The notes under the pieces were generated by a model. It searched no databases. It was not told the origin of the DNA and saw nothing but the letters and a program-made list of their open reading frames with translations. This document shows positions 36,805 through 59,520 of a DNA stretch of 64,000 nt, piece by piece. The DNA lies in assembly GCA_001799845.1 (NCBI GenBank), contig MGUG01000005.1, positions 43,662 through 107,661 of the forward strand, given 5' to 3'. A program made the translations under genes and the position numbers. Source of the DNA: Elusimicrobia bacterium GWC2_64_44. Its GTDB lineage: Bacteria; Elusimicrobiota; Elusimicrobia; Elusimicrobiales; UBA9959. Numbering within the stretch: the stretch's first letter is position 1; every line of letters begins with the position of its first letter.

Positions 36805-37497
36805 TCAATCTGTCTTCATCAGGGAGATCTCTATGCGTCTGTTCTTGGCTCGGCCTTCCGCGGTAGAATTATCCCCGACCGGCCGGTTATCGCCGTAGCC
36901 TATGCCGGCCAGGTGCTTGGAGTTCAGGCCCTCCCCTTGCATGAACTCAAGAACGCTGTAAGCTCTGGCCATCGAAAGCTCCCAATTAGAAGTATATTTC
37001 CCGTTCTTAATAGGGACATTGTCGGTATGTCCCTCGATTATAACGTCGTTGGGGATCTTTTTCAGCTCGGCGGCTATCGGGGCAAGCACTTTTCTGGCGG
37101 GCTCTTTCAGGTCCGCCTTTCCCGAAGCGAACAGTACCCCTTCCGTAAGCACCAGCTTTACTTTGCGCTCATTGGACTGTATCTGGACCAGGTTGGCCAG
37201 TTCGCCGGACTGCATAGACTCCTTCAGGTTGGACTCCACCTGCGATTCGTTTTCCTGCGCTTTGGCGCGCTCCAGACCGCGCGAAACGGCATTGCCGCCG
37301 AAGGCTTTCTGGATGTTCCCCAGGGATTCCTCGTATTTGCGGTTCTTGGTCTTGTCGTTTTTGGTAATAGAGAAAGAGAACAGCACCAGAAAGAATATCA
37401 TCAGGTAGCTCATCAGGTCGCCGTAAGTTACGGCCCAAAGCGCCCCTTTGTTCAGGTGATTCTCTACTTCATCCCTTCGCTGCTTGTATATAGCCAT
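36805..37497 (-). CDS. motB: MotB-type stator protein (TM + OmpA peptidoglycan-binding)
   Basis: ALWAVTYGDLMSYLMIFFLVLFSFS with conserved ion-channel Asp; IIEGHTDNVPIKNGKYTSNWELSMARAYSV...GDNRPVGDNSTAEGRAKNRRIEI. Confidence 0.9.
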   Translation of the reverse strand: MAIYKQRRDEVENHLNKGALWAVTYGDLMSYLMIFFLVLFSFSITKNDKTKNRKYEESLGNIQKAFGGNAVSRGLERAKAQENESQVESNLKESMQSGELANLVQIQSNERKVKLVLTEGVLFASGKADLKEPARKVLAPIAAELKKIPNDVIIEGHTDNVPIKNGKYTSNWELSMARAYSVLEFMQGEGLNSKHLAGIGYGDNRPVGDNSTAEGRAKNRRIEISLMKTD

Positions 37498-37505
37498 AAG
37501 CGCCT

Positions 37506-39071
37506 TTAAACCGCGTCTCCCGGTCGTTCTTCCACGCTGCCGCTAGGCTTAAGCGGCTCCTCGATGTCGCGGAGATACTTTTTCTCGAGCGTGTCGGTCT
37601 TGTGGTCAAGTGAGAACAGGCGCTTGTCCAGTTTTTCACATTTTTCCAGGGCCAGGAAAGCCGCTTGCTGGGCGTTCTTGATCTTGCCACCCGCGGCTTG
37701 CCAGATCGCCTTAAGGGCGGAGAGTTTAGCAGAGGCGGCAGCCATAACTTCCTCCCGCATCTTCCGGGAAGTATGCCCAAGGAGTTCGTGCGCTTCACGG
37801 ATCACCTTATCCGCTTCCGCGAGCACAAGATCCTTTGCCGAAGAGACTTCTAGGCAAAGCTGGTCCATCGACTCATTAACGTTTAAGACCTCACTTTCAA
37901 GCTTCCCCAGCCGTAGCGCCGTTTCGGATTCTGCTTTCTCCCGCAGGCCGCGCTCGTCCGAGATCAGGCCGCTAACTCCCGCTTTATTTTCATAGAACGA
38001 GAGCTCTGTCGCTTCGCAGCGTTCCTTTACGGCGTCCAGTTTCTTCAGCGCCATGTTCAAGGCTCCGGCGCAGGACTCCGCGCGGCGTTTAAACTCAGCG
38101 AACTCAGCCTCGTACTCCTGTCTGCAGCCAACGGTTTCACATTCTATTTTGGTCAGCCGCGCACGCGCTTCGGACTCCAGTTTTTTCCGCTGCCCCCGCT
38201 CAGCCGCCACCAGGGTCCGCACTTCAGCGTTATTTTCAGACACCAGTCGTTCCAGTGACTGAAGGTGCTCCTGCAGATCCCCCAGCTCGCCAAGCGTTCC
38301 CTTCAGCCCGGCCGCGTACGTCTCTCCTCGGCGGGTCAGCTCGGCAAGTTCCGTTTCATGCGATCGCAGAATACCCGCTGTCACGCTTTCTATCTTTCCG
38401 AACCTCTCTTCTATTTCTGACTCGAACTTTTTCCTGCGGCGACTCTCTTCCTCGGAGAAAGCCTGTGCCGTTTTTTCCATCGCTGAAGCCGCGCCCGCCA
38501 GCGTCGCCCGCAGCTCCGTATCCAGCGAAGCCGCCCACCGGCGGATCTCGTCGGCGCCGGCCGCGCCCGCGCGGCGGTCGGCTCCGGCGGCACGTTCCAT
38601 TTCCGCGGCGTGCTCCGCCATTTCAGCGGCCTTGCTCTCTGCGCAATTCCGGACGCCCGTTATCAGGTCCTTCAGCTCGTTCTCGCTGTTCTCGATCATC
38701 CGCTTCAGGTTAGCCTCAAGGCCCGGGACCTGCGCTGTTTTTTTCAGCAACTCCCCCATTCCGGCTTCAAGAGCGGCAAGTCTATTATTAACAGCCGCTC
38801 CAGAATCCGGGACCCCGCTCTGAGAGGCCGCCACACGCCTCGTTTCGGCTTCGGTCTCAAGCCGCTTTATTTTCATTTCCAGTTCGGCCAGCTTGTTCTT
38901 CAGACCAGTAACGTCCTGCTGCGGCTTGGCAAACTCCGGAGGGGCAAGAGGTTCCGACTTAAACTGAGATGCCGCGCCTGCAGCGTCTTCCGAGGACTTA
39001 AGGAAGGAAAAGACCGACCCGCCCTTGAGACGTTCGAAGATCTTATCCGCCTTATTCGATTCGTCGTTCAT
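37506..39071 (-). CDS. Long coiled-coil protein in motor cluster
   Basis: 521 aa heptad-rich; N-terminal FERLKGGSVFSFLK. Confidence 0.7.
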   Translation of the reverse strand: MNDESNKADKIFERLKGGSVFSFLKSSEDAAGAASQFKSEPLAPPEFAKPQQDVTGLKNKLAELEMKIKRLETEAETRRVAASQSGVPDSGAAVNNRLAALEAGMGELLKKTAQVPGLEANLKRMIENSENELKDLITGVRNCAESKAAEMAEHAAEMERAAGADRRAGAAGADEIRRWAASLDTELRATLAGAASAMEKTAQAFSEEESRRRKKFESEIEERFGKIESVTAGILRSHETELAELTRRGETYAAGLKGTLGELGDLQEHLQSLERLVSENNAEVRTLVAAERGQRKKLESEARARLTKIECETVGCRQEYEAEFAEFKRRAESCAGALNMALKKLDAVKERCEATELSFYENKAGVSGLISDERGLREKAESETALRLGKLESEVLNVNESMDQLCLEVSSAKDLVLAEADKVIREAHELLGHTSRKMREEVMAAASAKLSALKAIWQAAGGKIKNAQQAAFLALEKCEKLDKRLFSLDHKTDTLEKKYLRDIEEPLKPSGSVEERPGDAV

Positions 39072-39099: not shown

Positions 39100-40659
39100 T
39101 TATGCCGCGCTCCCGCTTTCCCCCATAACGCTGCGGGTCTTTTCCGCTATTTCCTTCCTGGCGGCATCAAGCTGTTCTTTTTCGCGCTTAAGCTCCGCGG
39201 CCATTACCTCTATGGCGGCGAATTTCTCACGTATGACCACGCCCGAAACTCCGGTAAGGGAGGAAAGCCTGTCTCCACCGACTTGCGTCACAAGGGAAAC
39301 AAGGGTATTCTCGTAACCACCAAGGCGTTTTGAAACATATTCGATAGACGAGCATACGGTTCCGATCTGCCGCAGCGTAGCCAACGCGCCGGCGTAGTTG
39401 GCGCTAAGCCGCGCGAACTGCTCACGGTTCTTTTCCTGAAGGTCCGTCATAAAGCGCTCAAGAGCCTTGTCTACGATGAGCCCGACATTTTCCAACGCCG
39501 ATTCCATGGTCCTTTTGTTGCCGTTAATGGCCTGGTCAAGCCCCTGTTCCAGCGCTTTTGCCTTTTTCTCGAACCCTTCAGCTATAATGCTGAAGTCGGA
39601 GACCTTTTCCCAGAAATGTTCAGCCTGCTCCTTATGTGCGTGCCTTATCGTCGCCAATTCCCCGCCGAGTTCCCTTAAATGCACGCTATACTCCTCCAGA
39701 TTTATGCTGGACAGGGCTTTCTCCAGGGAAGATATCTTCGCGGCGGCCTCCGAGAACGCCTGAAGACTCGCCTCTTCCTGAGAGCGCAAGGTATCTATGT
39801 TTCTGGTCAGCGCCGAAACCTTTTTATCCAGTTCGTCCGCCCGCGCATTATAGTTTATGCCGCCTTCCTTCACCGAGGATTCGTTCCTGGCGCCCACCGC
39901 TATCACCGAGTCGCGCAGTTGCAGGAAACCGTCTTCGCATGTCCTGCGGGTTTCGTCCAGCTTTCTCTCCAGTTCCGCGCTCCGCGACATGGACCGCTTT
40001 GCCTGGTCCTGCAACAGGCGTATGTCTTCATCGCGCTTCTTCCTCTCCTCTTCCAGGACCTTGGGCAACTCGGCAGCCATGCTCTTAACTTCCAGCCGGT
40101 AATTCTTCATCTCCCCCGCATGCGCGGCGCCCAGCGTTTTTAAGGCATCCAGCCGCGACACGAGACCCGCCAGAACGGACATCATGCCGCCGGTTCTTTT
40201 TTCCGCGGCGGCCCCGGCCGCGGCGGCTTGCCGCGACAGGTTATCAGCCAATACCCCGGGGATGTTCTTCGCTATAGCCTCTATCCGGGCATTAAGTTCC
40301 GCTACCTGCTCCGGGCTGGCCGACGGCGCCGGATTCAGACCGGCTAGTTTGGTCTCCACCGTGGCGGTCAGGTTCTTTTCAAGCAGGTCTATGCGGGCTT
40401 CAAGGGCGGTTATCTGCTTGGTAGTCACCGCGGGCACGGGAACGTGCGGAGCGGAGTTCAACCCGGCCAGTTTGGTTTCCACCAGGGAAATCAGGTTCTT
40501 TTCAAGCAGGTTGAGGCGGTCCTTAAGGGCGGTTATTTGCTCCTTAGGGACTTCCGGCGCGGGAGCAGGCCAGGCCGGGGATTGGGGAGCGATAGCCGAA
40601 AAAACGGAATTTCCGTTGAGTTCTCCCGCCAGTCCGCGGCTTTTTTTATAGTCAGGCAT
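39100..40659 (-). CDS. Long coiled-coil protein in motor cluster with N-terminal internal repeats
   Basis: 519 aa; repeats KEQITALKDRLNLLEKNLISLVETKLAGLN / TKQITALEARIDLLEKNLTATVETKLAGLN; N-terminal ELNGNSVFSAI. Confidence 0.7.
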   Translation of the reverse strand: MPDYKKSRGLAGELNGNSVFSAIAPQSPAWPAPAPEVPKEQITALKDRLNLLEKNLISLVETKLAGLNSAPHVPVPAVTTKQITALEARIDLLEKNLTATVETKLAGLNPAPSASPEQVAELNARIEAIAKNIPGVLADNLSRQAAAAGAAAEKRTGGMMSVLAGLVSRLDALKTLGAAHAGEMKNYRLEVKSMAAELPKVLEEERKKRDEDIRLLQDQAKRSMSRSAELERKLDETRRTCEDGFLQLRDSVIAVGARNESSVKEGGINYNARADELDKKVSALTRNIDTLRSQEEASLQAFSEAAAKISSLEKALSSINLEEYSVHLRELGGELATIRHAHKEQAEHFWEKVSDFSIIAEGFEKKAKALEQGLDQAINGNKRTMESALENVGLIVDKALERFMTDLQEKNREQFARLSANYAGALATLRQIGTVCSSIEYVSKRLGGYENTLVSLVTQVGGDRLSSLTGVSGVVIREKFAAIEVMAAELKREKEQLDAARKEIAEKTRSVMGESGSAA

Positions 40660-40675
40660 AATGATATCTCCGGTA

Positions 40676-42184
40676 TCAGGCGCCGGCCTGCTCGCTGGAC
40701 AGCATAAATTTCCGGGTGTCTGAAGGCTTCAGTATCTTTCCTTCCTGTATCAGCTCGGCCATTACCCGCATTATACGTTCCAGCGCCTCTTCCGTCTTTT
40801 CCGGGGAGGGCGCGCCGTAACTCATGCTCTGCTCCACCATCTGCCAGGTCTTTTCGGCCATCTGCCCCTTGATCTTCTCCTTCACATCGGACGGCAGGTC
40901 AAAAAGCGCGGAGGCCCACTCTTCGGCCTTGATCGAGGTCACAAGGAAGGAAAGGTCCCTGTCACTGAACATGCCTATATCGTCCGGCAGCAGTATGGAT
41001 TTGCGCACCTCCGCGGCCAGTTCGGGATGCTTTTTGGTAAGTTCATCCAGCATCCCGCGCTTGGCGCGCAGGTTCACGTTCTCTATCACGCTCAGCGCTC
41101 CTTCAATTCCGCCTACCGCGCCGCTCAGGCGTCTTTCCAGCTCGTCTTTAAGGGTAATTATTACGTCAGGCTCAATGAACCGTATCTTGGCCATGTTAAT
41201 GATAACGTCGGAAGCGAAAGAGGCCGGAAGCCTTTTAATGAACTCGCCCCGCACGTCCTGCTGAAGGTGCCCCGCCACCAGCGCCACATTGGCCGGGTCT
41301 TCGCTCACCATCATATTTACAAGGAACGGCACCTGGTCGAGGCGGATGTCGAATACGACCCCCCCGCTCTCGTCACGGGAGACGGTCCCGCCGCCTTCGG
41401 GCTGCGCCCCGCCGCCGGTGGCGGCAAGCGCCGGCTGACCGGCGTCCGGCATACCAGGCGCGCCGTTCTTACCCAGCTCCATAGTTATCTGGTGGCTCTG
41501 CTGCACTTTCGCCATGGTGCTCATGGCGCCGGCGAGTTTCAGAAAACCCACAGCAACGACTACCATGGCGATTACAGCTATCAAGGTAAGCATTACGTAT
41601 TTGAGGACCATGCTTATGGCCTCCGGGGTATACCAGATAGTGCGCCAGAGCGGCGCAAAAGGGGCCTTTATTACGGACATCTGGTCTCCCCTCTTAACGT
41701 CCAGCATCAGCATTTCAGAAACGACCTTGCGGATATTCTCGGCGTCCAGTTCCGGCAGGTCCCGGTTGACGATGATACTGACGGACATCTTCTTAACTAT
41801 GGCCGAGGGATACTGCATCTGCCTGTTATAGGATTTATTTTCCGTACCGCCCGTACCGTAAGCCGGGAAACCGGGCATAAGGTAGTCCCCCGATTGCGCG
41901 TCCCCCCCGGCGCCCTGCCATTTGAAAGGATTATTCTTGTCCTGCGAGACCGCGGAGGTGACATCCATTTTTTCGGTGCGGCTGAAATCCATAGTGGCCT
42001 CGACCACCACCTTGGCCTGGTTGGGGCCGAGCAGGCGCACCAGCACCTCGTCCACCTTCTGTTCAAGCGCGCGCTCGTACTTGGCCTTATCCTCGAAAGG
42101 CAGGGACTGCGCAAAAAGACCCGGCACCTGGAGGAACAAGAGGGCCGCTGCGATAACCGCCGTATTTCTTCCTATTTTTTTCAT
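40676..42184 (-). CDS. FliF (C-terminal ring-building/TM part)-FliG fusion protein
   Basis: FliF-like FEDKAKYERALEQKVDEVLVRLLGPNQAKVVVEATMDFSRTEKMDV...MSVSIIVNRDLPELDAENIRKVVSEMLMLDVKRGDQMSVIKAPFAP + TM; then FliG-like VSEDPANVALVAGHLQQDVRGEFIKRL...LPDDIGMFSDRDLSFLVTSIKAEEWASALFDLPSDVKEKIKGQM. Confidence 0.85.
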   Translation of the reverse strand: MKKIGRNTAVIAAALLFLQVPGLFAQSLPFEDKAKYERALEQKVDEVLVRLLGPNQAKVVVEATMDFSRTEKMDVTSAVSQDKNNPFKWQGAGGDAQSGDYLMPGFPAYGTGGTENKSYNRQMQYPSAIVKKMSVSIIVNRDLPELDAENIRKVVSEMLMLDVKRGDQMSVIKAPFAPLWRTIWYTPEAISMVLKYVMLTLIAVIAMVVVAVGFLKLAGAMSTMAKVQQSHQITMELGKNGAPGMPDAGQPALAATGGGAQPEGGGTVSRDESGGVVFDIRLDQVPFLVNMMVSEDPANVALVAGHLQQDVRGEFIKRLPASFASDVIINMAKIRFIEPDVIITLKDELERRLSGAVGGIEGALSVIENVNLRAKRGMLDELTKKHPELAAEVRKSILLPDDIGMFSDRDLSFLVTSIKAEEWASALFDLPSDVKEKIKGQMAEKTWQMVEQSMSYGAPSPEKTEEALERIMRVMAELIQEGKILKPSDTRKFMLSSEQAGA

Positions 42185-42213: not shown

Positions 42214-42951
42214 TCACAGGAAAGCCTGCAAGCGCCGCTCTACCACCAGCGGCACGCTTCCCTTCATTATCTCAAGCACACCTTCCAGTATCATGGTCTT
42301 AAGGCGCACCTGCATCCAGACCTTGGCCCGCATTTTCCCCGCTATGGGTACGCAGACCATGTTGGCGAAGAAGATCCCGTAAAAAGCCGAGGTTATGGCC
42401 ACCGCCATGGCCGGGCCCACGCTCTCGGGGTTGGCGAGGTCTTTCAATACCCCGATGATGCCGATGAGCGTCCCCAGAAGCCCGAACATCGGGGCCATTA
42501 CGCCCATAGTGCGGTAAACGTTGGCGACTTCGGTCATATCATCCACGCCCTGGTTTATCTCCTGTTCAAGCACCTGTCTGACGAAGTTATAGTCGTTATA
42601 TTCAAGCGCCGCTATGGCCGCCCTGTTGAGGAATCCGTCAGCCACTCCTGGATCGGCGTCTTTAAGCGCGACAAGCCCCCGCATGCGTGACTGCTCCGCG
42701 AGGTTTACTATCACGGGGATAAACTTCTCAAGGGACGCCTCGCCGGTCTCTCGGAATATCCAGCCCAGTTCGCGCGCGGCGCGGGAAACATACTTCAGAG
42801 GGGTATTTATAAGCGTGGCAACTATGGTACCGCCTATGACCACTACCACGCCATGCATATTCAGCAGGGAAGCCGAGATCTGGTTGCCGGCGAAACCGGC
42901 GAAGATAAGCCCCGCTGCGCCAGCCACACCGAGTATTGTAGTAATGTCCAT
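42214..42951 (-). CDS. motA: MotA-type stator protein
   Basis: GGTIVATLINTPLKYV; YRTMGVMAPMFGLLGTLIGIIGVLKDLANPESVGPAMAVAITSAFYGIFFANMVCVPIAGKM. Confidence 0.92.
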   Translation of the reverse strand: MDITTILGVAGAAGLIFAGFAGNQISASLLNMHGVVVVIGGTIVATLINTPLKYVSRAARELGWIFRETGEASLEKFIPVIVNLAEQSRMRGLVALKDADPGVADGFLNRAAIAALEYNDYNFVRQVLEQEINQGVDDMTEVANVYRTMGVMAPMFGLLGTLIGIIGVLKDLANPESVGPAMAVAITSAFYGIFFANMVCVPIAGKMRAKVWMQVRLKTMILEGVLEIMKGSVPLVVERRLQAFL

Positions 42952-42983: not shown

Positions 42984-43925
42984 TTAAGACTTGACCGGGA
43001 CCTTGAACCAGAATGTCGACCCTTTCCCAAGGCCCGGGCTGGCCGCGCCAATATCACCTTGGTGGGCGCGCACTACTTCCTGCGCTATCGACAGCCCCAG
43101 CCCCCAGCCCTGCTTGCGCAACTTCTCGTCCTTCTGGTGTTTGGCCTGGTAAAACTTCTCGAAGATCTTCTTCGTCTCGCTGGAATGTATCCCTATGCCG
43201 GCATCCTTCACCATCGTAACCACATATTTCCCCTCGCGGCGGAAAGAGATCTCGACTTTCTTGTCGGCGGGCGTGAATTTAATAGCGTTATTAACGAGGT
43301 TCATAAAGACCTGCGAGAGCCTGAACTTATCTCCGTCGACGAGAACACCCTCGGGGAAGTCGTGCACCACCAGGTCCACGCCCTTCTTCTGCGCGTTTAT
43401 GGAAAGACCGGGGAGGATATCCTTAGCCATCTCCGGAAAAAAGAAGTCCGTTTTTTCCATCTTAAGCTTCCCGGCCTCTATCATGGCCAGGTCGGTAAGG
43501 TCCGCTATCAGGCGGCCCAACTGGTCCGTGGAGCTTACGATGTTCTTCAGGTACATCGCCTCGCGTTCGCCCACGTTCTTCTTAAGCAGCAGTTCGCTGA
43601 ACCCCCTTATCGACGCCAACGGGGTACGCACGTCATGCACGACCATGGAAAGGAATTTGGACTTCATCTCGTTAAGGCGGCCCAGTTCCTGGTTGGAAAG
43701 AGAAAGTTTTACAGACATTCCCTCCAGCTCCTGTTTACGCTGGTAAAGCTGTCCCTGCGCCAGGGCTATGCGCTCCATATACTGCTGTATGACCATATTG
43801 GAGAAATGCTGCCGCTGGTTAAAGAAAGAAGACTGCATGAACCCGGACACCTGCGCGACGACAAGGAACCCCGCTCCCAGGAGGAGCAGAGACAAGGGGA
43901 TGAGCGCGATTATCAATATCTCCAT
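42984..43925 (-). CDS. Membrane sensor histidine kinase
   Basis: TM; SKFLSMVVHDVRTPLASIRGFSELLL; NLVNNAIKFTPADKKVEI; GWGLGLSIAQEVV. Confidence 0.92.
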   Translation of the reverse strand: MEILIIALIPLSLLLLGAGFLVVAQVSGFMQSSFFNQRQHFSNMVIQQYMERIALAQGQLYQRKQELEGMSVKLSLSNQELGRLNEMKSKFLSMVVHDVRTPLASIRGFSELLLKKNVGEREAMYLKNIVSSTDQLGRLIADLTDLAMIEAGKLKMEKTDFFFPEMAKDILPGLSINAQKKGVDLVVHDFPEGVLVDGDKFRLSQVFMNLVNNAIKFTPADKKVEISFRREGKYVVTMVKDAGIGIHSSETKKIFEKFYQAKHQKDEKLRKQGWGLGLSIAQEVVRAHQGDIGAASPGLGKGSTFWFKVPVKS

Positions 43926-43933
43926 AAAACGAC

Positions 43934-45649
43934 CTACTGCCACCCCTGGGCATCCATGAACTTCTTCGTGACCTGGTCGTCAGGCTTAAGCTCCATGGCC
44001 TTCTGATACGCCTGTTTCGCCTTCTCCTTGTCGCCCATCATGTAATAGGCGGAGCCCAGCCTGGTCCAGACCACGGGGTTCTGCTCGTCCAGCACCGACA
44101 CTTCCTCACATTCCTTGGCTGCCGCGTCGAACTGCTGTATATAGAAGCCTTTGGCGGCTTTCCTCAGTTTCTCCTTTATCAGGGATTCTTTGGGCAGTAT
44201 TTCATCGCGCCGCACGTGTATCTTCACCAGGTCGCTCATAACATACAGCAGTTCTTCGAACATCGGGTCTCCGCGCATATTCGCGCCCAGGGCGGCGTGG
44301 GCCAGCAGCAACGCCCGGAGGTCCTTACCCTCTATATACGCCGCTATGGCCTCCGTCCCTACCCTGGACTGCTCCGTAGCCATTGAAAGCAGTTGCTCCC
44401 GGGCCGGGACATCGGCCAGCTTAAGGCCTGCGATGACCGCGGAGAGCCGTTTATGCCTGGCGCCCCAGTCCCCTTCCTTAAGGCCGGGTTCAAGGTTGAA
44501 AGCTTTGTCGATATTGTTTTTCGCGGAAACATATCTGTACGCGGCCAGATCCTTCAGGGCCAGCTCAAGGAAATCCTTGGCGAACATATCCAGTTCTTCT
44601 ATCTTTTCCTTCCGGGCCACCAGTTTCGCTTTTTCCACGCGCTGCGTCCTGCCCGCGAGAGGCTGTTTTACCGCCGGCGCGCCGAACCGCATGGAAACTC
44701 CGAGTTTATGCATAGCGCCCAGTTCCCCGTAAGGGGACATAGAATAATCTATATCCGTGAACGAAAGCCGGAACCCCACGCCGAAACGCAGCCCTGTCCC
44801 CATTTCCTGCCCGGTACGGTACCCGGCCCGGAGGGAGAGCAGCTGGAACGCAACATATTCCGCGCCGATAGAGACGCAGTAATCCTCATCGTTCGAGTAG
44901 GTCTGGTCCAGGCTGAGTATCATGCTGGCGCTGCCGCCAGGATGCGAATGCCAGGAACCGCCGAGCGTGGCGGACATGGGCAAAGGAGAAGACCGCTTAT
45001 CGAACGTCAGCCCGGGGCCGATATTCTTTACCGCCATGGCCACGCGGAACTCCTGCGCCGGAGCCGCGCTCATCCAGTATTTGTCCGGCCGTATGTAATA
45101 GATGGCGCCCAGGTCGACCGCACCCGTGTTGGCGGAAGCGTTGTCCAGACGCTCGCTTATTAATTTTACGCCCGCGCCAACGTTCAGCACGGGCCGGGAG
45201 ATCTCGTCCTTAAGCAGGGTGCGGCCATAAGCGCCGCCAACCGCAATGTCGGAAGATCCCACCTTTCCTGTCTTCGCTCCCTGAGCGTCATAGCCCTGAA
45301 AAGGCGACACGCTGAGCCGGGTAAGATTAAAGCCGAGGGTGGCCCCGTACCTCATCGGATAAACCATGGATAGATACTGGTTGGTCACGTCTTCCATCGA
45401 GTCGTTGTATGTCGCGGAAAATTCCGGGCTTTCCACGCTGCCCAGGCCGGCCGGGTTCCACCAGGCGGAGTAGGCGTCCTCGGTTACGGCAGTATAAGCC
45501 TCCCCCATGCCTGTGCCGCGGGGGCTTGGAGAGAATTTAAGAAAAGACGCGGCGGAAGAGCCCGCATCCCCGGAGCTGGCCGGGAAAGGGAAAATGCCAC
45601 CGGCCAGACATATGGCCGCGAAAGCTATTTTTCTTATTCCTCTCTTCAT
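43934..45649 (-). CDS. PorV/UPF0164-like outer-membrane barrel fused to C-terminal TPR
   Basis: SSAASFLKFSPSPRGTGMGEAYTAVTEDAYSAWWNPAGLGSV; C-terminal VWTRLGSAYYMMGDKEKAKQAYQKAMELKPDD. Confidence 0.8.
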   Translation of the reverse strand: MKRGIRKIAFAAICLAGGIFPFPASSGDAGSSAASFLKFSPSPRGTGMGEAYTAVTEDAYSAWWNPAGLGSVESPEFSATYNDSMEDVTNQYLSMVYPMRYGATLGFNLTRLSVSPFQGYDAQGAKTGKVGSSDIAVGGAYGRTLLKDEISRPVLNVGAGVKLISERLDNASANTGAVDLGAIYYIRPDKYWMSAAPAQEFRVAMAVKNIGPGLTFDKRSSPLPMSATLGGSWHSHPGGSASMILSLDQTYSNDEDYCVSIGAEYVAFQLLSLRAGYRTGQEMGTGLRFGVGFRLSFTDIDYSMSPYGELGAMHKLGVSMRFGAPAVKQPLAGRTQRVEKAKLVARKEKIEELDMFAKDFLELALKDLAAYRYVSAKNNIDKAFNLEPGLKEGDWGARHKRLSAVIAGLKLADVPAREQLLSMATEQSRVGTEAIAAYIEGKDLRALLLAHAALGANMRGDPMFEELLYVMSDLVKIHVRRDEILPKESLIKEKLRKAAKGFYIQQFDAAAKECEEVSVLDEQNPVVWTRLGSAYYMMGDKEKAKQAYQKAMELKPDDQVTKKFMDAQGWQ

Positions 45650-45834: not shown

Positions 45835-46227
45835 CTAGGAACGGCCGCTGATTATCTCCACGGCTTTCTCAAGAACTTTTTCAGGCGGTATCATTTTAGG
45901 GAAAAAGCACACGAATCCGCGCGCCGAAGCAAAAACCTTATTCAACTCGTCGTCCATGAAGTTTTCCCCGGTCATTACCACGAAAGGGATACTATTCAGC
46001 CTGGGGTCCTTAACCGCCCGTTTGTTCAGCTCGAGCACAAATTCCTTCCCGGACATTTCCGGCATTGAAACGTCAAGAACGATGAAATCAGGGATTCCAA
46101 TCCGCAGTTGTTCAAGGGCCTGAAGGCCGTTCATCGCAAGTTCCACTTCGTACCCGGCATCCTCGAAGATATACTTGAACAATTCAAGAATGGTCCGTTC
46201 ATCATCTACGATAAGGATTTTAGCCAT
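45835..46227 (-). CDS. Response regulator, receiver-only
   Basis: KILIVDDERTILELFKYIF...PDFIVLDVSMPEMSGKEFV...VVMTGE. Confidence 0.9.
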   Translation of the reverse strand: MAKILIVDDERTILELFKYIFEDAGYEVELAMNGLQALEQLRIGIPDFIVLDVSMPEMSGKEFVLELNKRAVKDPRLNSIPFVVMTGENFMDDELNKVFASARGFVCFFPKMIPPEKVLEKAVEIISGRS

Positions 46228-46230
46228 AAG

Positions 46231-47619
46231 TCACTTCGTCTGTATAGCAAAAGAGAATTTGCTGCCTTTACCTTCTTCCGACTCTACCCAGATACGTCCC
46301 CTATGAAGTTCCACCGCCATTTTACACATAGCCAGGCCAAGCCCGAACCCCATGTATTTATGCTCCTCCAACTGAGTGTATTTCTCAAAGATTTCCTTAT
46401 GTTTATCCTTAGGGATGCCGGGCCCGGTATCCTCCACGCCGAACACCACCTCTCCGCCGGCCTCACTGCAGAAAAGCGAAACCTCCCCGCCATTTGGAGT
46501 GAACTTAAGTGCGTTCCCCACAAGATTGGAGATAACCCGCTCAAGAAGGACCACATCCGCGTTAAAATCAATTTTCGAGGGAGAAGGGACAAGCGAGAAC
46601 TTTATGTTCTTACGCGAAGCCAAAGGAGCGTACATCTCGAATACGCGGGCGCACATCTCCCCCGCATCCGCGGCGGCGGGATTAAGTTTCATCTCGCCGT
46701 GCTCCAGTTTTATGGTATTAAGGATATCCTCCACCATTCCGTTGAGCCGCATGGAAGAACGCAGGATGGCCTGCAGATATTTGCCCGCTTCGGGAGACGC
46801 GGGAACATACTGTTCCATCAGATGGGCATAGCCCTGTATGCTGGTTAGGGGCGCCCGCATGTCGTGGGTTATCATGTGGAAGAAAGTTTCGCGCGCGCTC
46901 TCTATCTCTTTTTCCACGGTGACGTCGCGGATAAGAATAACGCGCCCTGACCGTTTAAAAGTAGCCAGCAAGAACTGCCGCGAGATGACCCGAAAATTCT
47001 TACACACGTCGCAATCCCCGTCCGGGTCATGCACCGTAACCTCAGCCTTCAGATAGTTCTCCTGGGAAGCCATGAGCCCGCTCACTACGGGAGCGAACGT
47101 TTCGTGCTTTACCGATCCCGGCAGCACGATATTAGGGTCATGCTTGTCTATCCCCAGCAGGTCCAGCGCCCGCTGGTTGGAATATATAAGCAGCCCGCGG
47201 TCGTCCACCAGCATGACGCCGTCAGTTATGGTCTCTATCAGCGCCTGAGCCTTGGCGCGCTCTTCCACCACCTGGTTCAGGTGGAACGCCCTGTAAGCGT
47301 TGAGTTCTAGCATAAGCCGGTTCAGCGAGGAAATAAGAACTCTCGCCTCCGGCCATCCATCTTTGGGGATAACGGACTCGAGTTTATAATCCCCTGCGAT
47401 GAACCGTTTCACCCCCTGGGACATACCCGCCATGGGACGCGCCAGGCCGGCCAGGAGGGCCCATACTGATAATGACCCACAAAGAAAAACAGCAGCAGCG
47501 GCCAGCAAGAGCGCCTGCGGATAAGCGAGACCGAACCAGGACACTGCGGCGAAAAAGGCCAGAACAGGCAGCAGTGAAGCCGCGGCCACTATCAAAGTCA
47601 GGCGGTATATTATTTTCAT
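46231..47619 (-). CDS. Sensor histidine kinase with HAMP/PAS
   Basis: TM; FFHMITHDMRAPLTSIQGYAHLM; NLVGNALKFTPNGGEV; VEDTGPGIPKDKHKEIFEKY. Confidence 0.92.
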   Translation of the reverse strand: MKIIYRLTLIVAAASLLPVLAFFAAVSWFGLAYPQALLLAAAAVFLCGSLSVWALLAGLARPMAGMSQGVKRFIAGDYKLESVIPKDGWPEARVLISSLNRLMLELNAYRAFHLNQVVEERAKAQALIETITDGVMLVDDRGLLIYSNQRALDLLGIDKHDPNIVLPGSVKHETFAPVVSGLMASQENYLKAEVTVHDPDGDCDVCKNFRVISRQFLLATFKRSGRVILIRDVTVEKEIESARETFFHMITHDMRAPLTSIQGYAHLMEQYVPASPEAGKYLQAILRSSMRLNGMVEDILNTIKLEHGEMKLNPAAADAGEMCARVFEMYAPLASRKNIKFSLVPSPSKIDFNADVVLLERVISNLVGNALKFTPNGGEVSLFCSEAGGEVVFGVEDTGPGIPKDKHKEIFEKYTQLEEHKYMGFGLGLAMCKMAVELHRGRIWVESEEGKGSKFSFAIQTK

Positions 47620-47841
47620 AGAAGAGGATAGAACTTATCCTTACTCGGATTATACAAAATGGAGCCCGAAACAATCCCGAAGCCCAGAAATCCCATCGCA
47701 GAGCGGGATTTTCGGGATTTCCGTAGTAAAAAGTAGTATATTTCGGGGATATTCCCCAGCGTCCGACAGACAGTATTGCCACCCGGCCAATGGATTACCG
47801 GGTGTATTTATGTGTTTTAATTGCACCCACGGAGGACCACA

Positions 47842-48402
47842 ATGAACGTCCTGGTAATAGACGACGATCCGGTGTTCGCAACGCTGGTGAGAGAGATGGT
47901 CATCGACGCCGGCCACAACGCGAAAGTGGCGAATTCAGGCGAGGCCGGATTAACATGCTATAAGATCCGGCCTTTTGACATTCTAATTTGCGATTGGGCC
48001 ATGCCCGGCATCTCCGGCATAGATGTTTGCCGTAAGATCCGCGAGCTGCCCTCCCAGAATTACACGTACTTCATAATACTTACCGGGGAGAAGACCACCA
48101 GGGATCATTATGTGACCGCCATGAAAAACGGCGCCGACGACTTACTTGTAAAACCCGTCGACGCGGAAACCCTGATGTTCCGGCTGGCGGTAGCCGCGCG
48201 CATATGCCACACCACCAACCGTCTTACCCAGTTAGAGCATATGATATCCATATGCTCCCATTGCAAACGCATACGCAGGGACGACAATGTATACGAGCAG
48301 TTGCAAACATATGTTTCACGTTATTACAAAGTGGCGTTCTCACACGGGGTCTGCCCTGACTGCATGGAGAAGTTCTATCCGGATGTTGCCCCACCTACGT
48401 AA
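47842..48402 (+). CDS. Response regulator with C-terminal CxxC...SHGxCPxC zinc-ribbon-like domain
   Basis: MNVLVIDDDPVFATLV...ILICDWAMPGISG; ISICSHCKRIRRDDNVYEQLQTYVSRYYKVAFSHGVCPDCMEKFYP. Confidence 0.88.
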   Translation: MNVLVIDDDPVFATLVREMVIDAGHNAKVANSGEAGLTCYKIRPFDILICDWAMPGISGIDVCRKIRELPSQNYTYFIILTGEKTTRDHYVTAMKNGADDLLVKPVDAETLMFRLAVAARICHTTNRLTQLEHMISICSHCKRIRRDDNVYEQLQTYVSRYYKVAFSHGVCPDCMEKFYPDVAPPT

Positions 48403-48627
48403 GCGCGGACAGCGCACGCCCGGTTTTAAGGTTTCCGCAGAATCTGCTTCCAGAATAACATGAGGAACTGGCCCCGCCCCTCGCAGTAATCGTTGGGGCA
48501 AAGAGCTTCTCGCCGACGCGGTGCGCGTGGCGGATCACGCGATCAAACTACCGAGCCACTTCCATGGAAGTCCATCCGGGTCGCCCGGGCATTCAGCCGC
48601 GCAGGGCAAAAATACCTCCCTGAAACC

Positions 48628-48734
48628 GGTAAAAACACGGTAAAAATGCGTGGGCCCTGGCGGTAGGCCGGTTAACGGAGGACTCCGGGACCAAAGACAC
48701 TTCTGGAACCGCGTGGGATGGCGTAAATTATAAT
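48628..48734 (+). promoter_or_regulatory. Conserved upstream element E1 (48628-48703) + -10 TATAAT (48729-48734)
   Basis: GGTAAAAACACGGTAAAA...GGGCCCTGGCGGTAGGCC...GACACTTC, 25 nt, TATAAT; shared with E2-E5. Confidence 0.75.
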
Positions 48735-48769
48735 CAGCGGCAGAGACTAAGGGTTAAAGGAGAAAAGAT

Positions 48770-49639
48770 ATGAAGAGAATTCTAATAGCAGCGGTGATGC
48801 TGGGTCTCGCGGGCGGTGCTTACGCGGCGGACTTCGGCGATCTGGGCGGAGTGAAAGCGGCCGGCCTTAAGGCCCTGGCAGCGGCGGAAGGCATTGTTGT
48901 CCCAGAGGTGAATAAAGGCTATGTGGCAGGAAACGATGCTGTGGTGGGTACGCCTTCCAAACCGGTTGAGTATATCACCATTAATGGCGGGGAATTCCCG
49001 ATGGGAACCGACAGCGGCGAGAAAGGTTTTGAAGACGCCAAGCCGATACATGAGGTATCCATCAAAACCTTTGGTATGTCCAAAACAGCGGTTACAGTGG
49101 AGCAATACGCGGAATGCGTTATCAAAGGCGGTTGCACGGACCCGGCCACCGGAGCCTATTGCAACTGGGGCAAGACCGGACGCCAGTTTCACCCGGTCAA
49201 CTGCGTGGATTGGAATCAGGCGCAGGCTTACGCCAAATTCAAAGGCGCCAGGCTCCCCAGCGAAGCCGAGTTCGAATACGCGGCCACCAGCGGCGGCAAG
49301 AACCAGAAATACCCGTGGGGCAATGAAGAACCGACCAGCGAACTGGCAGTGTTTCATACCAATGGCACCATGCCGGTCTGCTCCAAGCCCAAGGGGAATA
49401 CGGCGCATGGTTTATGTGATATGTCCGGCAATGTCTGGCAGTGGATGCAGGACAAGTACCAGGATTCGTATAAAGGTGCGTCTGTTGACGGCAGTGCGGT
49501 TGAAGGTGCGGGCTCCGCCCGGGTGGTTCGTGGCGGCTCCTTCAACATCGGTGGCGCCAGATACCTGCGGGCCGATGGCCGCAACTACTACGGCCCCGGC
49601 GGCCGCCGCGGCAGCATCGGGTTCCGCCTTGTGAGGTAA
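48770..49639 (+). CDS. Secreted FGE/sulfatase-modifying-factor (CLec) domain protein with shared AADF leader
   Basis: MKRILIAAVMLGLAGGAYAADFGDL; INGGEFPMGTD; WNQAQAYAKFKGARLPSEAEFEYAA; HGLCDMSGNVWQWMQD; ARVVRGGSFN...IGFRLVR. Confidence 0.88.
   Translation: MKRILIAAVMLGLAGGAYAADFGDLGGVKAAGLKALAAAEGIVVPEVNKGYVAGNDAVVGTPSKPVEYITINGGEFPMGTDSGEKGFEDAKPIHEVSIKTFGMSKTAVTVEQYAECVIKGGCTDPATGAYCNWGKTGRQFHPVNCVDWNQAQAYAKFKGARLPSEAEFEYAATSGGKNQKYPWGNEEPTSELAVFHTNGTMPVCSKPKGNTAHGLCDMSGNVWQWMQDKYQDSYKGASVDGSAVEGAGSARVVRGGSFNIGGARYLRADGRNYYGPGGRRGSIGFRLVR
49541..49639 (+). other. Candidate DGR-type variable region at C-terminus of CLec domain
   Basis: FNIGGARYLRADGRNYYGPGGRRGSIGFRLVR; most codons at template-Asn positions are NNC (ATC, GGC, TAC, TAC, GGC, CGC, AGC). 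Confidence 0.4.
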
Positions 49640-49713
49640 GTGTTGTTGACCCTTGGACACTTGAACTTTTGGCCCTTGGTCTTGAATCAGTTGCAGTAAA
49701 ATCAGTTTGCGGA

Positions 49714-49758
49714 GGTAGCGCACCGGGCGCGTGCGTAAGCCGCGCCCGGTGCGCTACC
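49714..49758. repeat. Perfect 18-bp inverted repeat, 9-nt loop, no T-tract
   Basis: GGTAGCGCACCGGGCGCG-TGCGTAAGC-CGCGCCCGGTGCGCTACC. Confidence 0.9.
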
Positions 49759-49797
49759 GGAGCACTAGGAATATAAATCCGGAACCGCGGCGGAGAA

Positions 49798-50172
49798 ATG
49801 AAACTCAAGATTTTCACCCTGCGTTTAAATCCGGCGACCGGACTTTTCGACGAGGGTGAGCTTGCGAGTTTCCAGTTGGCCAAAGATGTGATCGAGATCT
49901 CGGAACATTTCCTTGTCCACGAAAAGACGCCGACACTTTTACTGGTCCTGCGTTACAGAGAGCTTCCGGATGGTGACGGTGCGCGCCGGCAACCGGAGGC
50001 CGCGCGCAAGGACTGGCGCGCGGAGCTTGACGCGCAGGGACAGCGGATCTACGACGAGTTCAGATCGTGGCGCGGCCGCAAAGCCAAACAGGAAGGTTTA
50101 CCGCCCTACCTAATCCTTAATAATCGCGAGCTGGCGGAATTAGTAATGAAGCATCCGGCGAACGGGAGATAA
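49798..50172 (+). CDS. HRDC-domain protein resembling DGR accessory HRDC proteins
   Basis: MKLKIFTLRLNPATGLFDEGELASFQLAKDVIEISEHFLVHEKTPTLLLVLRYRE; C-terminal IYDEFRSWRGRKAKQEGLPPYLILNNRELAELV (HRDC). Confidence 0.65.
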   Translation: MKLKIFTLRLNPATGLFDEGELASFQLAKDVIEISEHFLVHEKTPTLLLVLRYRELPDGDGARRQPEAARKDWRAELDAQGQRIYDEFRSWRGRKAKQEGLPPYLILNNRELAELVMKHPANGR

Positions 50173-50286
50173 AGGGGACATCCCAAGCGGTTCCAGAATT
50201 TAGGGAATTATTCGACCCACTAGGCGGGGCCCACCTTGTTTTACCGGCCTTTAAAGCCGTATGGAACGGACTGTTTAACAGTCCCC

Positions 50287-50985
50287 TCAATGCCCCGGGG
50301 CGATTAGTTTATATCCAAGTCCGCGTACCGAGGCTATCCTATCACCGAGCGCCCCAAGCTTCTTGCGAAGATTCATTACGGTCACATCCACGACTTTATG
50401 GCTGGCAGAATTGGAAGAAGTCTTCCAGACCGCTTCCAGCAGAAAATCCCTGGTGACAGGGATATTAGTCCTTTCCAGCAGCACGCGCAGAAGCTCATAT
50501 TCCATGCGGGAAAGCTGCACATTCTCCCCGCCGGCCTGCACCTGCCGTGCTTTCAGATCCATCGACAGGGCGCCGCATTCAAGCCTGTCGCCGCAGCCGG
50601 CCAGCTCCGGGCTACCCCGGCGCACCAAGCCGTCGGCGCGGGCCATAAGTTCCTCAATATCGAAAGGCTTTGCCAGATAATCGTCCGCGCCGAAACGCAG
50701 GCCAAGCACCCTGTCCTCCACCTCGCCCTTGCCCGTGAGCATTAGTATGGGGATAGTTCTGTAGCGGGAATCCTTTCTTAAAGTCAGGCAGAACTTAACG
50801 CCGTCCCCATCGGGGAGCCCCCTGTCGAGCACTATCAGGTCCGGCCTGGCCGTTTCAAGCTCTTTAGCTCCCTCCGCAAGGGTTTTGGCAACATGGACCA
50901 CGCGGCCCGCTTCCAGCATGGCCGCCTTCACCAGCTCACGGCAGGCGGGATCGTCCTCTATTATAAGCACCAGAATTTTACGCAT
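50287..50985 (-). CDS. OmpR/PhoB-family response regulator
   Basis: Receiver VLIIEDDP...LIVLDRGLPDGDG...LMLTGK...YLAKPF; winged-helix LSRMEYELLRVLLERTNIPVTRDFLLEAVW...RGLGYKL. Confidence 0.92.
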   Translation of the reverse strand: MRKILVLIIEDDPACRELVKAAMLEAGRVVHVAKTLAEGAKELETARPDLIVLDRGLPDGDGVKFCLTLRKDSRYRTIPILMLTGKGEVEDRVLGLRFGADDYLAKPFDIEELMARADGLVRRGSPELAGCGDRLECGALSMDLKARQVQAGGENVQLSRMEYELLRVLLERTNIPVTRDFLLEAVWKTSSNSASHKVVDVTVMNLRKKLGALGDRIASVRGLGYKLIAPGH

Positions 50986-51105
50986 ATCTTCTCCTGTACC
51001 GCAAAGAGCCCGGATTGAAACAAGAGGGCAAGAGACTGCTGGCGCCGTTTATGCAGTTGTCTGTTTTGCCGGTCGCGGCGCTGAGAATCTCCGCGCGGCC
51101 ACCCC

Positions 51106-51474
51106 TCATGCATGCAGGAGTTTTCTTACCACCGCTATTATTTGGTCCAGCGGCTGGGTCTTTGCCAGCGCCCCCCTGCAGTTGGGAAGCCTCCTGAACC
51201 CCTCCGCGAGCATTGGGTCCCCGGCCAGCGAGGATAACAGGATGAACGGGATGCCGGAGGTAGCCCGCATACAGCGTATACCCAGCGCCGCGTCATAGCC
51301 GCTCATATCTCCCAATTCATAATCCAGCAGTATGAGGTCCGGCAGATAGGTTAGCGAGTTCTTGATGCCCGCCTTGCCGCTGAGCGCGCTGTCCGCATCG
51401 TAACCCGCCTCGCGCAAAGCGCAACACAGCATCAGAGCAAACGGTTCGTTATCCTCTATGACAAGTATTTTCAT
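51106..51474 (-). CDS. Response regulator, receiver-only
   Basis: MKILVIEDNEPFALMLCCAL...LILLDYELGDMSGYDA. Confidence 0.88.
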   Translation of the reverse strand: MKILVIEDNEPFALMLCCALREAGYDADSALSGKAGIKNSLTYLPDLILLDYELGDMSGYDAALGIRCMRATSGIPFILLSSLAGDPMLAEGFRRLPNCRGALAKTQPLDQIIAVVRKLLHA

Positions 51475-51878
51475 TTTTGGCGCGATCCCGACCACGAAAA
51501 AAAGTGGCAGTTCATCCCAGAATAGGACAGCATCTCCGAAATGCAGGAAAGAAGCTCCCCTGAAGCCAGCGGCTTCCTGAACACGCGCACCCGCCCATTA
51601 CGGACCAGAAGGGGCCGTACACGCTCCGGCAGCCCTGTGACAAAAATTACCGGCACCCCGGCTCGGGATATTTCCCTGATTATCTCAAAGCCCCTTTCCC
51701 CTCCGCCAGCGGGGATGTCGGAGTCCAGAACGACCAGCTGGGGCAGAAACTCCCGGAACAAGAGGACCGCCGCGGTGGTATCGGCGGCGACACGCATTTC
51801 GTACCCGGCCTCACGGAACAATGCCTTATAAAATTCCGTCATCGCGATATCGTCATCTACGGCAAGGATACGTTTCAT
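51471..51878 (-). CDS. Response regulator, receiver-only (4-nt overlap with 51106-51474)
   Basis: RILAVDDDIAMTEFYKALF...LVVLDSDIPAGGGERG...VIFVTG...RVFRKPL. Confidence 0.85.
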   Translation of the reverse strand: MKRILAVDDDIAMTEFYKALFREAGYEMRVAADTTAAVLLFREFLPQLVVLDSDIPAGGGERGFEIIREISRAGVPVIFVTGLPERVRPLLVRNGRVRVFRKPLASGELLSCISEMLSYSGMNCHFFSWSGSRQK

Positions 51879-57669: not shown

Positions 57670-58350
57670 ATGTCAGGAGAAAGAATACTTGTAATAGAGG
57701 ACAACCCTGAGACTTCTTGTCTTATTAAATGCTCACTTGAGGAAACTGGATTTAAAGTAATCATTACAGATTTAATAAACTCCGGTTTCAATCTGCTTCA
57801 AAACCAGCAGCCCTCCCTGGTAATTGTCGACGTCGACCTGCCGGACGGTAGCGGCTTTGATTTTTGCCGAAAAGTACGAAGTCATAAACCCCTGGCCTCG
57901 ACCCCTATAATATTATTAACAGGCCATTCGGACGTTAAAGACAAAATGCTGGGATTCGCGTGCGGCGCGGATCAGTACCTGACAAAACCTATAGAAATGG
58001 TGGAGCTGGAAATGTGGGTTAAAGCACTGCTTAAAAGAGTCTCCATCGACACGGCTCATGCCCCTGTCGCGGAGAGCGAAGATCTGTCAATAGACGAAGA
58101 AACTCATTTAGTTAAGTATAAGGACCTGACCATTGAAAATCTGACGGCCAGGGAATTCAAACTTTTACAAATACTTGCAAAGAACATGCCAAAGGTATTA
58201 TCTAGAAAATATATTTTATCCAAGATCTGGAATACCGTCGCTGTAGACCATCTTGTTGACACGCATATTTATAATTTGAGAAAGAAATTACCGGCAGATC
58301 TGGCCGTGAGAATCCAATCCGTTCCCGGCAAGGGCTTTCGCTTTCATTAG
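57670..58350 (+). CDS. OmpR/PhoB-family response regulator
   Basis: ILVIEDNPETSCLIK...LVIVDVDLPDGSGFDFC...YLTKPI; winged helix LTAREFKLLQILAKNMPKVLSRKYILSKIW...GKGFRFH. Confidence 0.92.
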   Translation: MSGERILVIEDNPETSCLIKCSLEETGFKVIITDLINSGFNLLQNQQPSLVIVDVDLPDGSGFDFCRKVRSHKPLASTPIILLTGHSDVKDKMLGFACGADQYLTKPIEMVELEMWVKALLKRVSIDTAHAPVAESEDLSIDEETHLVKYKDLTIENLTAREFKLLQILAKNMPKVLSRKYILSKIWNTVAVDHLVDTHIYNLRKKLPADLAVRIQSVPGKGFRFH

Positions 58351-58365
58351 ACCTACCACTACACC

Positions 58366-59364
58366 TTAAGGACGCCCTTTCTTTGAATGCCCCTGGGGGG
58401 CCTTCCTGGCCCCATCCTTCTCCCCGAATTTAAAGGTTAGGCTCATCCGTTGCATACTCCCCATCTCGCCCATCGGCACAAAACCATAATTCATCATAAA
58501 ATTGGATGCCTTAAAACCAATACCAGCGTTAACACCTACCGGCAAACCGCCTAACCCTCCCTCCCCCACACCCATCGCGCGTGATAACCCGCCGTTCAGA
58601 ACAAACCCGCTGCCCATATTTAAACCCAGCCCCAGCCCGAATACCAGGCTGCTTTCAGGGATATTCCCGCTCAGGTTGAATACCGCTTCCAGCCCGCCGC
58701 CTACGTTCACCGCCATCCCGGCCGCCGCGGTAAGCGGCAACGACTCGCTTTTTGACATATACTTCATCGGGCTGCCGATATTGCGCACTGAAAGGCCCAC
58801 CTTGTACGGATATGCGTCATACTTGTCACCGGCGAACACCGCCCCAAGATCCATAGCGAACGCGGAGGCAGACTCACGCTCTATGGTTGAAGTTATATAT
58901 TTAAACGTAACGCCGCCAGTGAACTGACCGAAGTTCTTACCCGCACTTAGGTTAACCGCCATGTCAGCAGCGCCGAATCCGCCGGTAGGCGCGCCCTGCG
59001 CGTCGCGCCCTTCAAAACTATTGGCTGACACGCGCGTAACTGACAAGCCCCCGTTAAAACTTTCGCCATAATGGCCGTAACCAGCATTCAAGAAGTTGTA
59101 CCCCTCAAGGTGTGAGCCGTATGAGCTCTGAAACTCGCTCTGCTTCATTAGGCCCACCAGCGCAGGGTTATCCATTATCCCGCCCATCCCACTGCCTGAA
59201 ACTACCGCGCTGCCGCCAAGGCCCATCGACTGCGCGCTAGCAGGGATCTTTAAGAACGCGGCGGCCGAGGTCTTGGCCCCGCCTTGAACCGGCGGACAAA
59301 ACAGGCACCCCATCGACAGCAGTGCCAGGGGGATCAGGCGGGTTTTGGCGGTTATCCGTTTCAT
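58366..59364 (-). CDS. PorV/UPF0164-like outer-membrane barrel protein
   Basis: KTSAAAFLKIPASAQSMGLGGSAVVSGSGMGGIMDNPALVGLMKQSEFQSSYGSHLEGYNF...MQRMSLTFKFG. Confidence 0.75.
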   Translation of the reverse strand: MKRITAKTRLIPLALLSMGCLFCPPVQGGAKTSAAAFLKIPASAQSMGLGGSAVVSGSGMGGIMDNPALVGLMKQSEFQSSYGSHLEGYNFLNAGYGHYGESFNGGLSVTRVSANSFEGRDAQGAPTGGFGAADMAVNLSAGKNFGQFTGGVTFKYITSTIERESASAFAMDLGAVFAGDKYDAYPYKVGLSVRNIGSPMKYMSKSESLPLTAAAGMAVNVGGGLEAVFNLSGNIPESSLVFGLGLGLNMGSGFVLNGGLSRAMGVGEGGLGGLPVGVNAGIGFKASNFMMNYGFVPMGEMGSMQRMSLTFKFGEKDGARKAPQGHSKKGRP

Positions 59365-59520
59365 ACCAATAGGATAATCGGTTTTCCGCACCGCGTCCAC
59401 GAAAGATATTTACAAGGAAACAGGCCGTTATCTCACAGGGGGAACCTGTAAAAACGGCCTGTTTCTTGTAGTTTTTTTACTTCTTCTTGTATCTCCCGAC
59501 CTACAGCTGTGATGAACGAC

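Follow-up and report, generated by a model that had tools for sequence, protein, structure and literature searches.

We found that the window, by which we mean the whole stretch of 64,000 nucleotides analysed here, carries a gene for a natural fusion of FliF and FliG (FliFG; 40676..42184, (-) strand). Together with MotA and MotB from the same operon, FliFG probably forms a rotary motor that spans the cell envelope, is driven by ions and works independently of a flagellum. It is highly probable that FliFG is a rotor and that MotA/MotB are a stator; that the output of the motor is gliding or the handling of surface proteins is a guess about which we are somewhat more doubtful than confident.

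Domain structure of the FliF-FliG fusion

The open reading frame encodes 502 aa from its ATG, or 513 aa if an upstream in-frame GTG is used. Three Pfam domains were matched above their curated cut-offs: YscJ_FliF_C over its whole profile (residues 48-176, 1.1e-8), FliG_M (residues 288-356, 3.4e-10) and FliG_C (residues 381-484, 7.8e-15). When a profile of 44 relatives was compared with the PDB, T. maritima FliG (1lkv) was matched at E=6.8e-38 and the FliF chain 9yh6 at 2.9e-7. An AlphaFold2 monomer model of FliFG, made with 44 relatives, had a mean pLDDT of 72 and a low pTM of 0.36. Foldseek matched it to 31 PDB structures at E<=0.001, all of them of FliG or FliF.

Reference HMMs for flagellar FliF and flagellar FliG were each built from seven proteins, which came from E. 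coli, from five flagellar loci on plasmids and from the flagellated relative G032. The FliF HMM covered FliFG only from FliF position 235 onward, up to 478 (E=1.8e-16), and the FliG HMM only from FliG position 122 onward (E=1.3e-30). Of FliF, the RBM3/collar region and TM2 remain in FliFG, without RBM1, RBM2 and the C-tail; of FliG, the M and C domains remain, without FliG-N. The initial annotation had proposed a natural fusion that lacks RBM1/RBM2 and keeps RBM3/collar, and Pfam, the profile search, the HMMs and Foldseek agree on it, with FliF homology from position 235 on. The possibility that the N-terminal half is unrelated to FliF had also been raised there, and this half was recognised as FliF by the HMM, Pfam and Foldseek alike. 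The 1:1 FliF:FliG stoichiometry that had been suggested is indeed enforced by the fusion. The loss of FliG-N and of the FliF C-tail that binds it goes beyond what had been noticed.

The chain begins with a signal or TM segment (residues 1-26; 42107..42184 (-)), assigned from the sequence and a model helix at residues 7-18. In kinase-fused relatives (see below) this segment would be an uncleaved TM if the kinase is cytoplasmic. The RBM3/collar domain follows (residues 29-176; 41657..42100 (-)), where the Pfam match is joined by model matches to FliF RBM3 rings, and then a TM helix corresponding to FliF TM2 (about residues 190-222; 41519..41617 (-)), placed by a model helix at 187-230, a hydrophobic stretch and the FliF HMM. 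A disordered linker (residues 227-277; 41354..41506 (-)) replaces the FliF tail and FliG-N; it was delimited by the pLDDT, which is <50 across residues 231-273, and by the start of the FliG HMM match. The remainder, defined by Pfam and a table of known sites, consists of the FliG middle domain with EDPA for EHPQ (residues 288-356; 41117..41323 (-)) and the FliG C-terminal domain with the torque helix (residues 381-484; 40733..41044 (-)).

Operon, paralogues and rotor-stator residues

The genes around FliFG are transcribed, all on the (-) strand, in the order PorV/PorQ barrel-TPR protein, histidine kinase, MotA, FliFG, two coiled-coil proteins and MotB. The stator subunit MotA (42214..42951 (-)) was identified by Pfam MotA_ExbB and by a full-length match to solved flagellar stators (MotA/PomA, E=6.5e-34). 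MotB (36805..37497 (-)) has a plug and an OmpA domain according to Pfam, and it, too, matches a solved flagellar stator subunit over its full length (MotB, E=1.6e-32). In alignments, MotA keeps the channel residues P173 and P222 and MotB keeps the channel Asp, which is Asp27 when aligned with E. coli MotB. The first gene encodes a PorV/PorQ-family outer-membrane barrel with a C-terminal TPR (43934..45649 (-); NF033709 at 1.2e-45, TPR, synteny), and the second a histidine kinase with one N-terminal TM (42984..43943 (-); Pfam HisKA/HATPase_c, synteny). The two coiled-coil proteins, of 519 aa (39100..40659 (-)) and 521 aa (37506..39071 (-)), were recognised by heptad score and conserved position; no family match was obtained for them in Pfam and a further family-model search. 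A stand-alone response regulator (45835..46227 (-)) and a second histidine kinase with a PAS domain (46231..47619 (-)), both found by Pfam, adjoin the cluster in several close relatives and are possible partners.

In addition, stand-alone response regulators and kinases are unusually many near the motor cluster (window positions 45835-51878 and 57670-58350). At 58366-63942(-), a PorV-like barrel, recognised by its sequence pattern with no Pfam match, adjoins a 1473-aa protein of Ig/fn3 repeats, which has a weak Por_Secre_tail match and looks like a T9SS-type surface protein.

MotB also matches ZorB models, which would speak for a Zorya-type anti-phage system. Six cluster proteins were scanned and this was the sole match: MotA had no ZorA match, ZorC, ZorD and ZorE were matched by none of the six, and FliFG is no part of Zorya. 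We rejected this reading, whose probability is close to nil.

The assembly from which the window comes is a 90% complete draft of 3.09 Mb with five FliG_C loci, and all five FliG_C proteins are fusions with FliF homology. The FliF HMM detected it at E values of 1.8e-16 to 1.7e-5 in four of them (C5, C54, C30 and C7); in the fifth (C35) the homology was traced via its close relatives L037-L043, and the N-terminal half has the same layout. A flagellar-type MotA is present at all five loci, in C30 about 6.5 kb off and on the opposite strand. The genome has only two MotA_ExbB genes besides these, and by ORF reading they appear to belong to a TolQ/TolR/TolA-like cluster and to an ExbB/ExbD/TonB-like cluster by a TonB-dependent receptor. 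The C35-type rotor, which occurs across the phylum, is the most flagellar-like by Pfam score, and in L006 (8008-9960(-)), L037, L038 and L043 it has TPR repeats beyond FliG-C.

Family searches of the same draft for FlhA (PF00771), FliM/FliN (PF01052) and the FliF N-domain, RBM1/RBM2 (PF01514), found none of them. At the FliM-binding EHPQR motif, the window FliG has E125 D126 P127 A128 N160 (E. coli numbering; R160 is replaced by N); the motif is degraded. Taken together, these findings indicate that FliFG is not the MS-ring/C-ring of a flagellum. The earlier view of a reduced MS-ring with an attached C-ring subunit is therefore borne out for the domains and fails for the flagellar structures themselves.

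We also looked at the charged residues of the torque helix, as the initial annotation had recommended. E. coli FliG K264, R281, D288, D289 and R297 correspond to F, K, Q, S and P in the window protein (F264 K281 E287 Q288 S289 in E. coli numbering), and thus charge is kept at position 281 only. On the stator side, MotA keeps R90 at the rotor contact, and E98 is replaced by K. Window-type relatives of the same family mostly have FliG E287 and Q288, then S or T at 289, and almost all loci arranged as HK-MotA-FliFG have K or R at MotA 98 (S in L084). In the C35 paralogue, MotA K90/E98 are kept, together with FliG K287/E288, and in the kinase-fused clade charge is lost on both the rotor and the stator sides. 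The charge patterns appear to change in step by paralogue type, which fits stators matched to their own rotors. Since the D288/D289 pair and MotA E98 are changed, torque via the known contacts cannot be assumed.

Distribution and conservation in Elusimicrobiota

Of 200 phylum genomes, 67 contained FliG_C, with a maximum of six copies per genome. FlhA was present in one of the 200 (G032) and absent from 199, and the FliF N-domain exceeded the cut-off in G032 only. G032, the sole genome with FlhA among those sampled from Elusimicrobiota, encodes FliF and FliG separately within an ordinary flagellar gene cluster (L105, G032:C2:110000-129800), and no FliFG fusion was found in it. A single-cell study likewise noted that flagellar genes are absent from Elusimicrobia (PMC7031533). 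Among the matches listed, 53 loci came from named genomes, titled Elusimicrobia, Elusimicrobiota, Elusimicrobiales or only 'bacterium'; this spread comes from one genome-collection scan of metagenome assemblies, and other phyla may also have FliFG. A distant FliFG (L101, WVXT01000028.1; 20% identity), which is accompanied by MotA, MotB and a PorV-like match, may be from outside Elusimicrobiota. In plasmid records the matches were flagellar fliF/fliG or 'FliG C-terminal domain' proteins, and the one of the latter on a Photobacterium plasmid sits in a flagellar locus; viral contigs gave one candidate stretch and no relative.

The order PorV-like barrel/TPR, histidine kinase, MotA, FliFG, coiled-coil, MotB recurs in the family, and its HK-MotA-FliFG part was seen in 29 loci. 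At least one ORF lies between FliFG and MotB in all 40 checkable loci, mostly coiled-coil-like by a crude heptad score. In G037 the FliFG neighbour (L106 3047-7852(-)) is also coiled-coil-like and, at 1601 aa, far longer than its window counterpart.

In 12 other loci (L081, L083, L085, L087, L088, L089, L090, L093, L095, L096, L097 and L100) the kinase and FliFG form one open frame, HK, TM, RBM3, TM and FliG-M/C. These fusions belong to one lineage of the phylum, and MotA is found further along where the contig extends far enough. Such an in-frame fusion suggests that the kinase is part of the rotor. It could also mean that the FliFG ring and the kinase form a stationary platform that senses ion flow or load via MotA/MotB and has little or no mechanical output, and the several response regulators close by and the altered charges of the torque helix agree with this. 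Yet a closely related kinase lies directly beside MotA and FliFG in only one of the five loci of the genome, and a complete stator with a peptidoglycan anchor and kept channel residues argues for work and not for sensing alone. We consider a sensing platform improbable.

FliFG is under purifying selection, with dN/dS of about 0.10-0.27 among close relatives (NG86; synonymous sites are near saturation), and the domain boundaries given by the FliF and FliG HMMs were identical in all fusions tested. In a tree of FliG-M/C, the window-type rotors formed a well-supported group; several rows were very long and the tree did not settle a single origin of all fusions (52/88). A decaying fliF and fliG joined through deletion, that is, a relic of a lost flagellum, would be conceivable, since ordinary fliF and fliG do occur in at least one flagellated member of the phylum. 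Against such a relic stand the up to six intact copies per genome, the conserved operon and boundaries and the dN/dS values, and we rejected it as very improbable. The five paralogues each with MotA, the conserved operon and the spread through the phylum in the absence of flagella had not been part of the initial annotation.

Proposed motor and comparison with known systems

In the rotary motor that we favour, many FliFG chains would assemble into a membrane ring (the model is of a monomer), with RBM3/collar presumably in the periplasm, the TM helix in the membrane and FliG-M/C in the cytoplasm on the flexible linker. MotA/MotB would be fixed to peptidoglycan through the OmpA domain of MotB, and ion flow through them would push FliG-C and turn the ring. 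The joint between the FliF tail and FliG-N would be dispensable because rotor and torque subunit share one chain. With no FliM/FliN there would be no classical switch, and the kinase and the coiled-coil proteins are likely regulators. The turning ring would transmit work through the periplasm to the outer membrane, with the PorV-like barrel/TPR protein as the most likely link, and there the work would move or deploy surface proteins; the roles given to PorV and the surface proteins are taken solely from the gene neighbourhood.

Gliding or surface-protein export is suggested by the PorV-like barrels, by SprA-like ORFs in the phylum and by large surface-type proteins, which lie near the C35 paralogue and at other places in the window. 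In Bacteroidota the GldL/GldM motor powers type IX secretion and gliding, and as a special case of the rotary motor FliFG-MotAB might replace GldL/GldM and drive PorV/SprA-dependent export or movement. The PorV/PorQ-family barrel in the operon and the surface-type proteins would suit this, as would the findings that 35 of the 200 phylum genomes have SprA_N-like ORFs (about 1700-1850 aa) and that none of the 200 has a GldM domain above the cut-off. However, the window's own genome gave no SprA_N match, SprA-like ORFs were also found in genomes without FliFG, the SprA and GldM family models fit this phylum poorly, and PorV-family barrels are known outside T9SS as well. We regard the replacement of GldL/GldM as unlikely. 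On a broader proposal our confidence and our doubt are evenly balanced. In it, each cell would run a set of specialised FliFG-MotAB rotary motors for gliding or for outer-membrane/surface-protein transport, and in some lineages every rotor subunit would bear a histidine kinase; FliG would then serve as a torque subunit without a flagellum, in a new class of envelope machine.

The established role of FliG is that of torque subunit in the flagellum. In Elusimicrobiota, almost all of which are non-flagellated, a rotary motor seems to have been uncoupled from the flagellum and reused otherwise. If this is true, FliFG-MotAB, without switch, export apparatus or filament, would be a very small rotor-stator core kept by evolution, and it would bear on the old question of flagellar origin, namely whether a motor without secretion is possible. 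It would also point to an unrecognised mode of movement or surface handling in a largely uncultured phylum. Structural and mechanical studies would gain a single-chain rotor, and in the natural HK-FliF-FliG chain the rotor would be tied directly and physically to two-component signalling.

With the flagellar rotor and MotA/MotB the window system shares RBM3, FliG-M and FliG-C, the stator family and the kept channel residues. Unlike in the flagellum, RBM1/RBM2, the FliF tail, FliG-N, FliM, FliN and FlhA were not found, and the charges of the torque helix and MotA are re-patterned. The open literature searched, a scope beyond which most subscription papers and preprints lie, contained no description of FliFG combined with MotA/MotB apart from the flagellum. 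FliF and FliG have been joined in one chain by engineering in Salmonella and Vibrio, and the Salmonella fusions were reported to rotate with biased direction (PMC4768692, PMC11481574); in contrast to the window FliFG, these are artificial fusions of full-length proteins within ordinary flagella. SpoIIIAG of the sporulation complex is, like FliFG, an RBM3-like ring-type protein with an insert that is used outside the flagellum (PMC4768692). It differs from FliFG in having no FliG part. We know of no MotA/MotB partner of SpoIIIAG.

Agl-Glt of Myxococcus and GldLM/T9SS gliding of Bacteroidota resemble the window system as ion-driven, MotAB-like (5:2) motors on the envelope outside the flagellum. 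Their motor parts are of the TolQR/ExbBD-like or GldLM kind, and we know of no FliF or FliG rotor in either. In the literature searched, Chlamydiaceae provide the only example of a natural FliF-FliG fusion, of about 330 aa (Bergeron 2016, PMC4768692). Both it and the window FliFG occur without flagella, with a shortened periplasmic part of FliF and without FliG-N. The chlamydial protein keeps an RBM2-like region and FliG-M only, its RBM3 (SpoIIIAG-like) is described as absent, and it was described without a stator and discussed as a possible injectisome partner (PMC4768692). The window FliFG, in contrast, keeps RBM3 and both FliG-M and FliG-C and has MotA/MotB alongside, a nearly opposite choice of domains.
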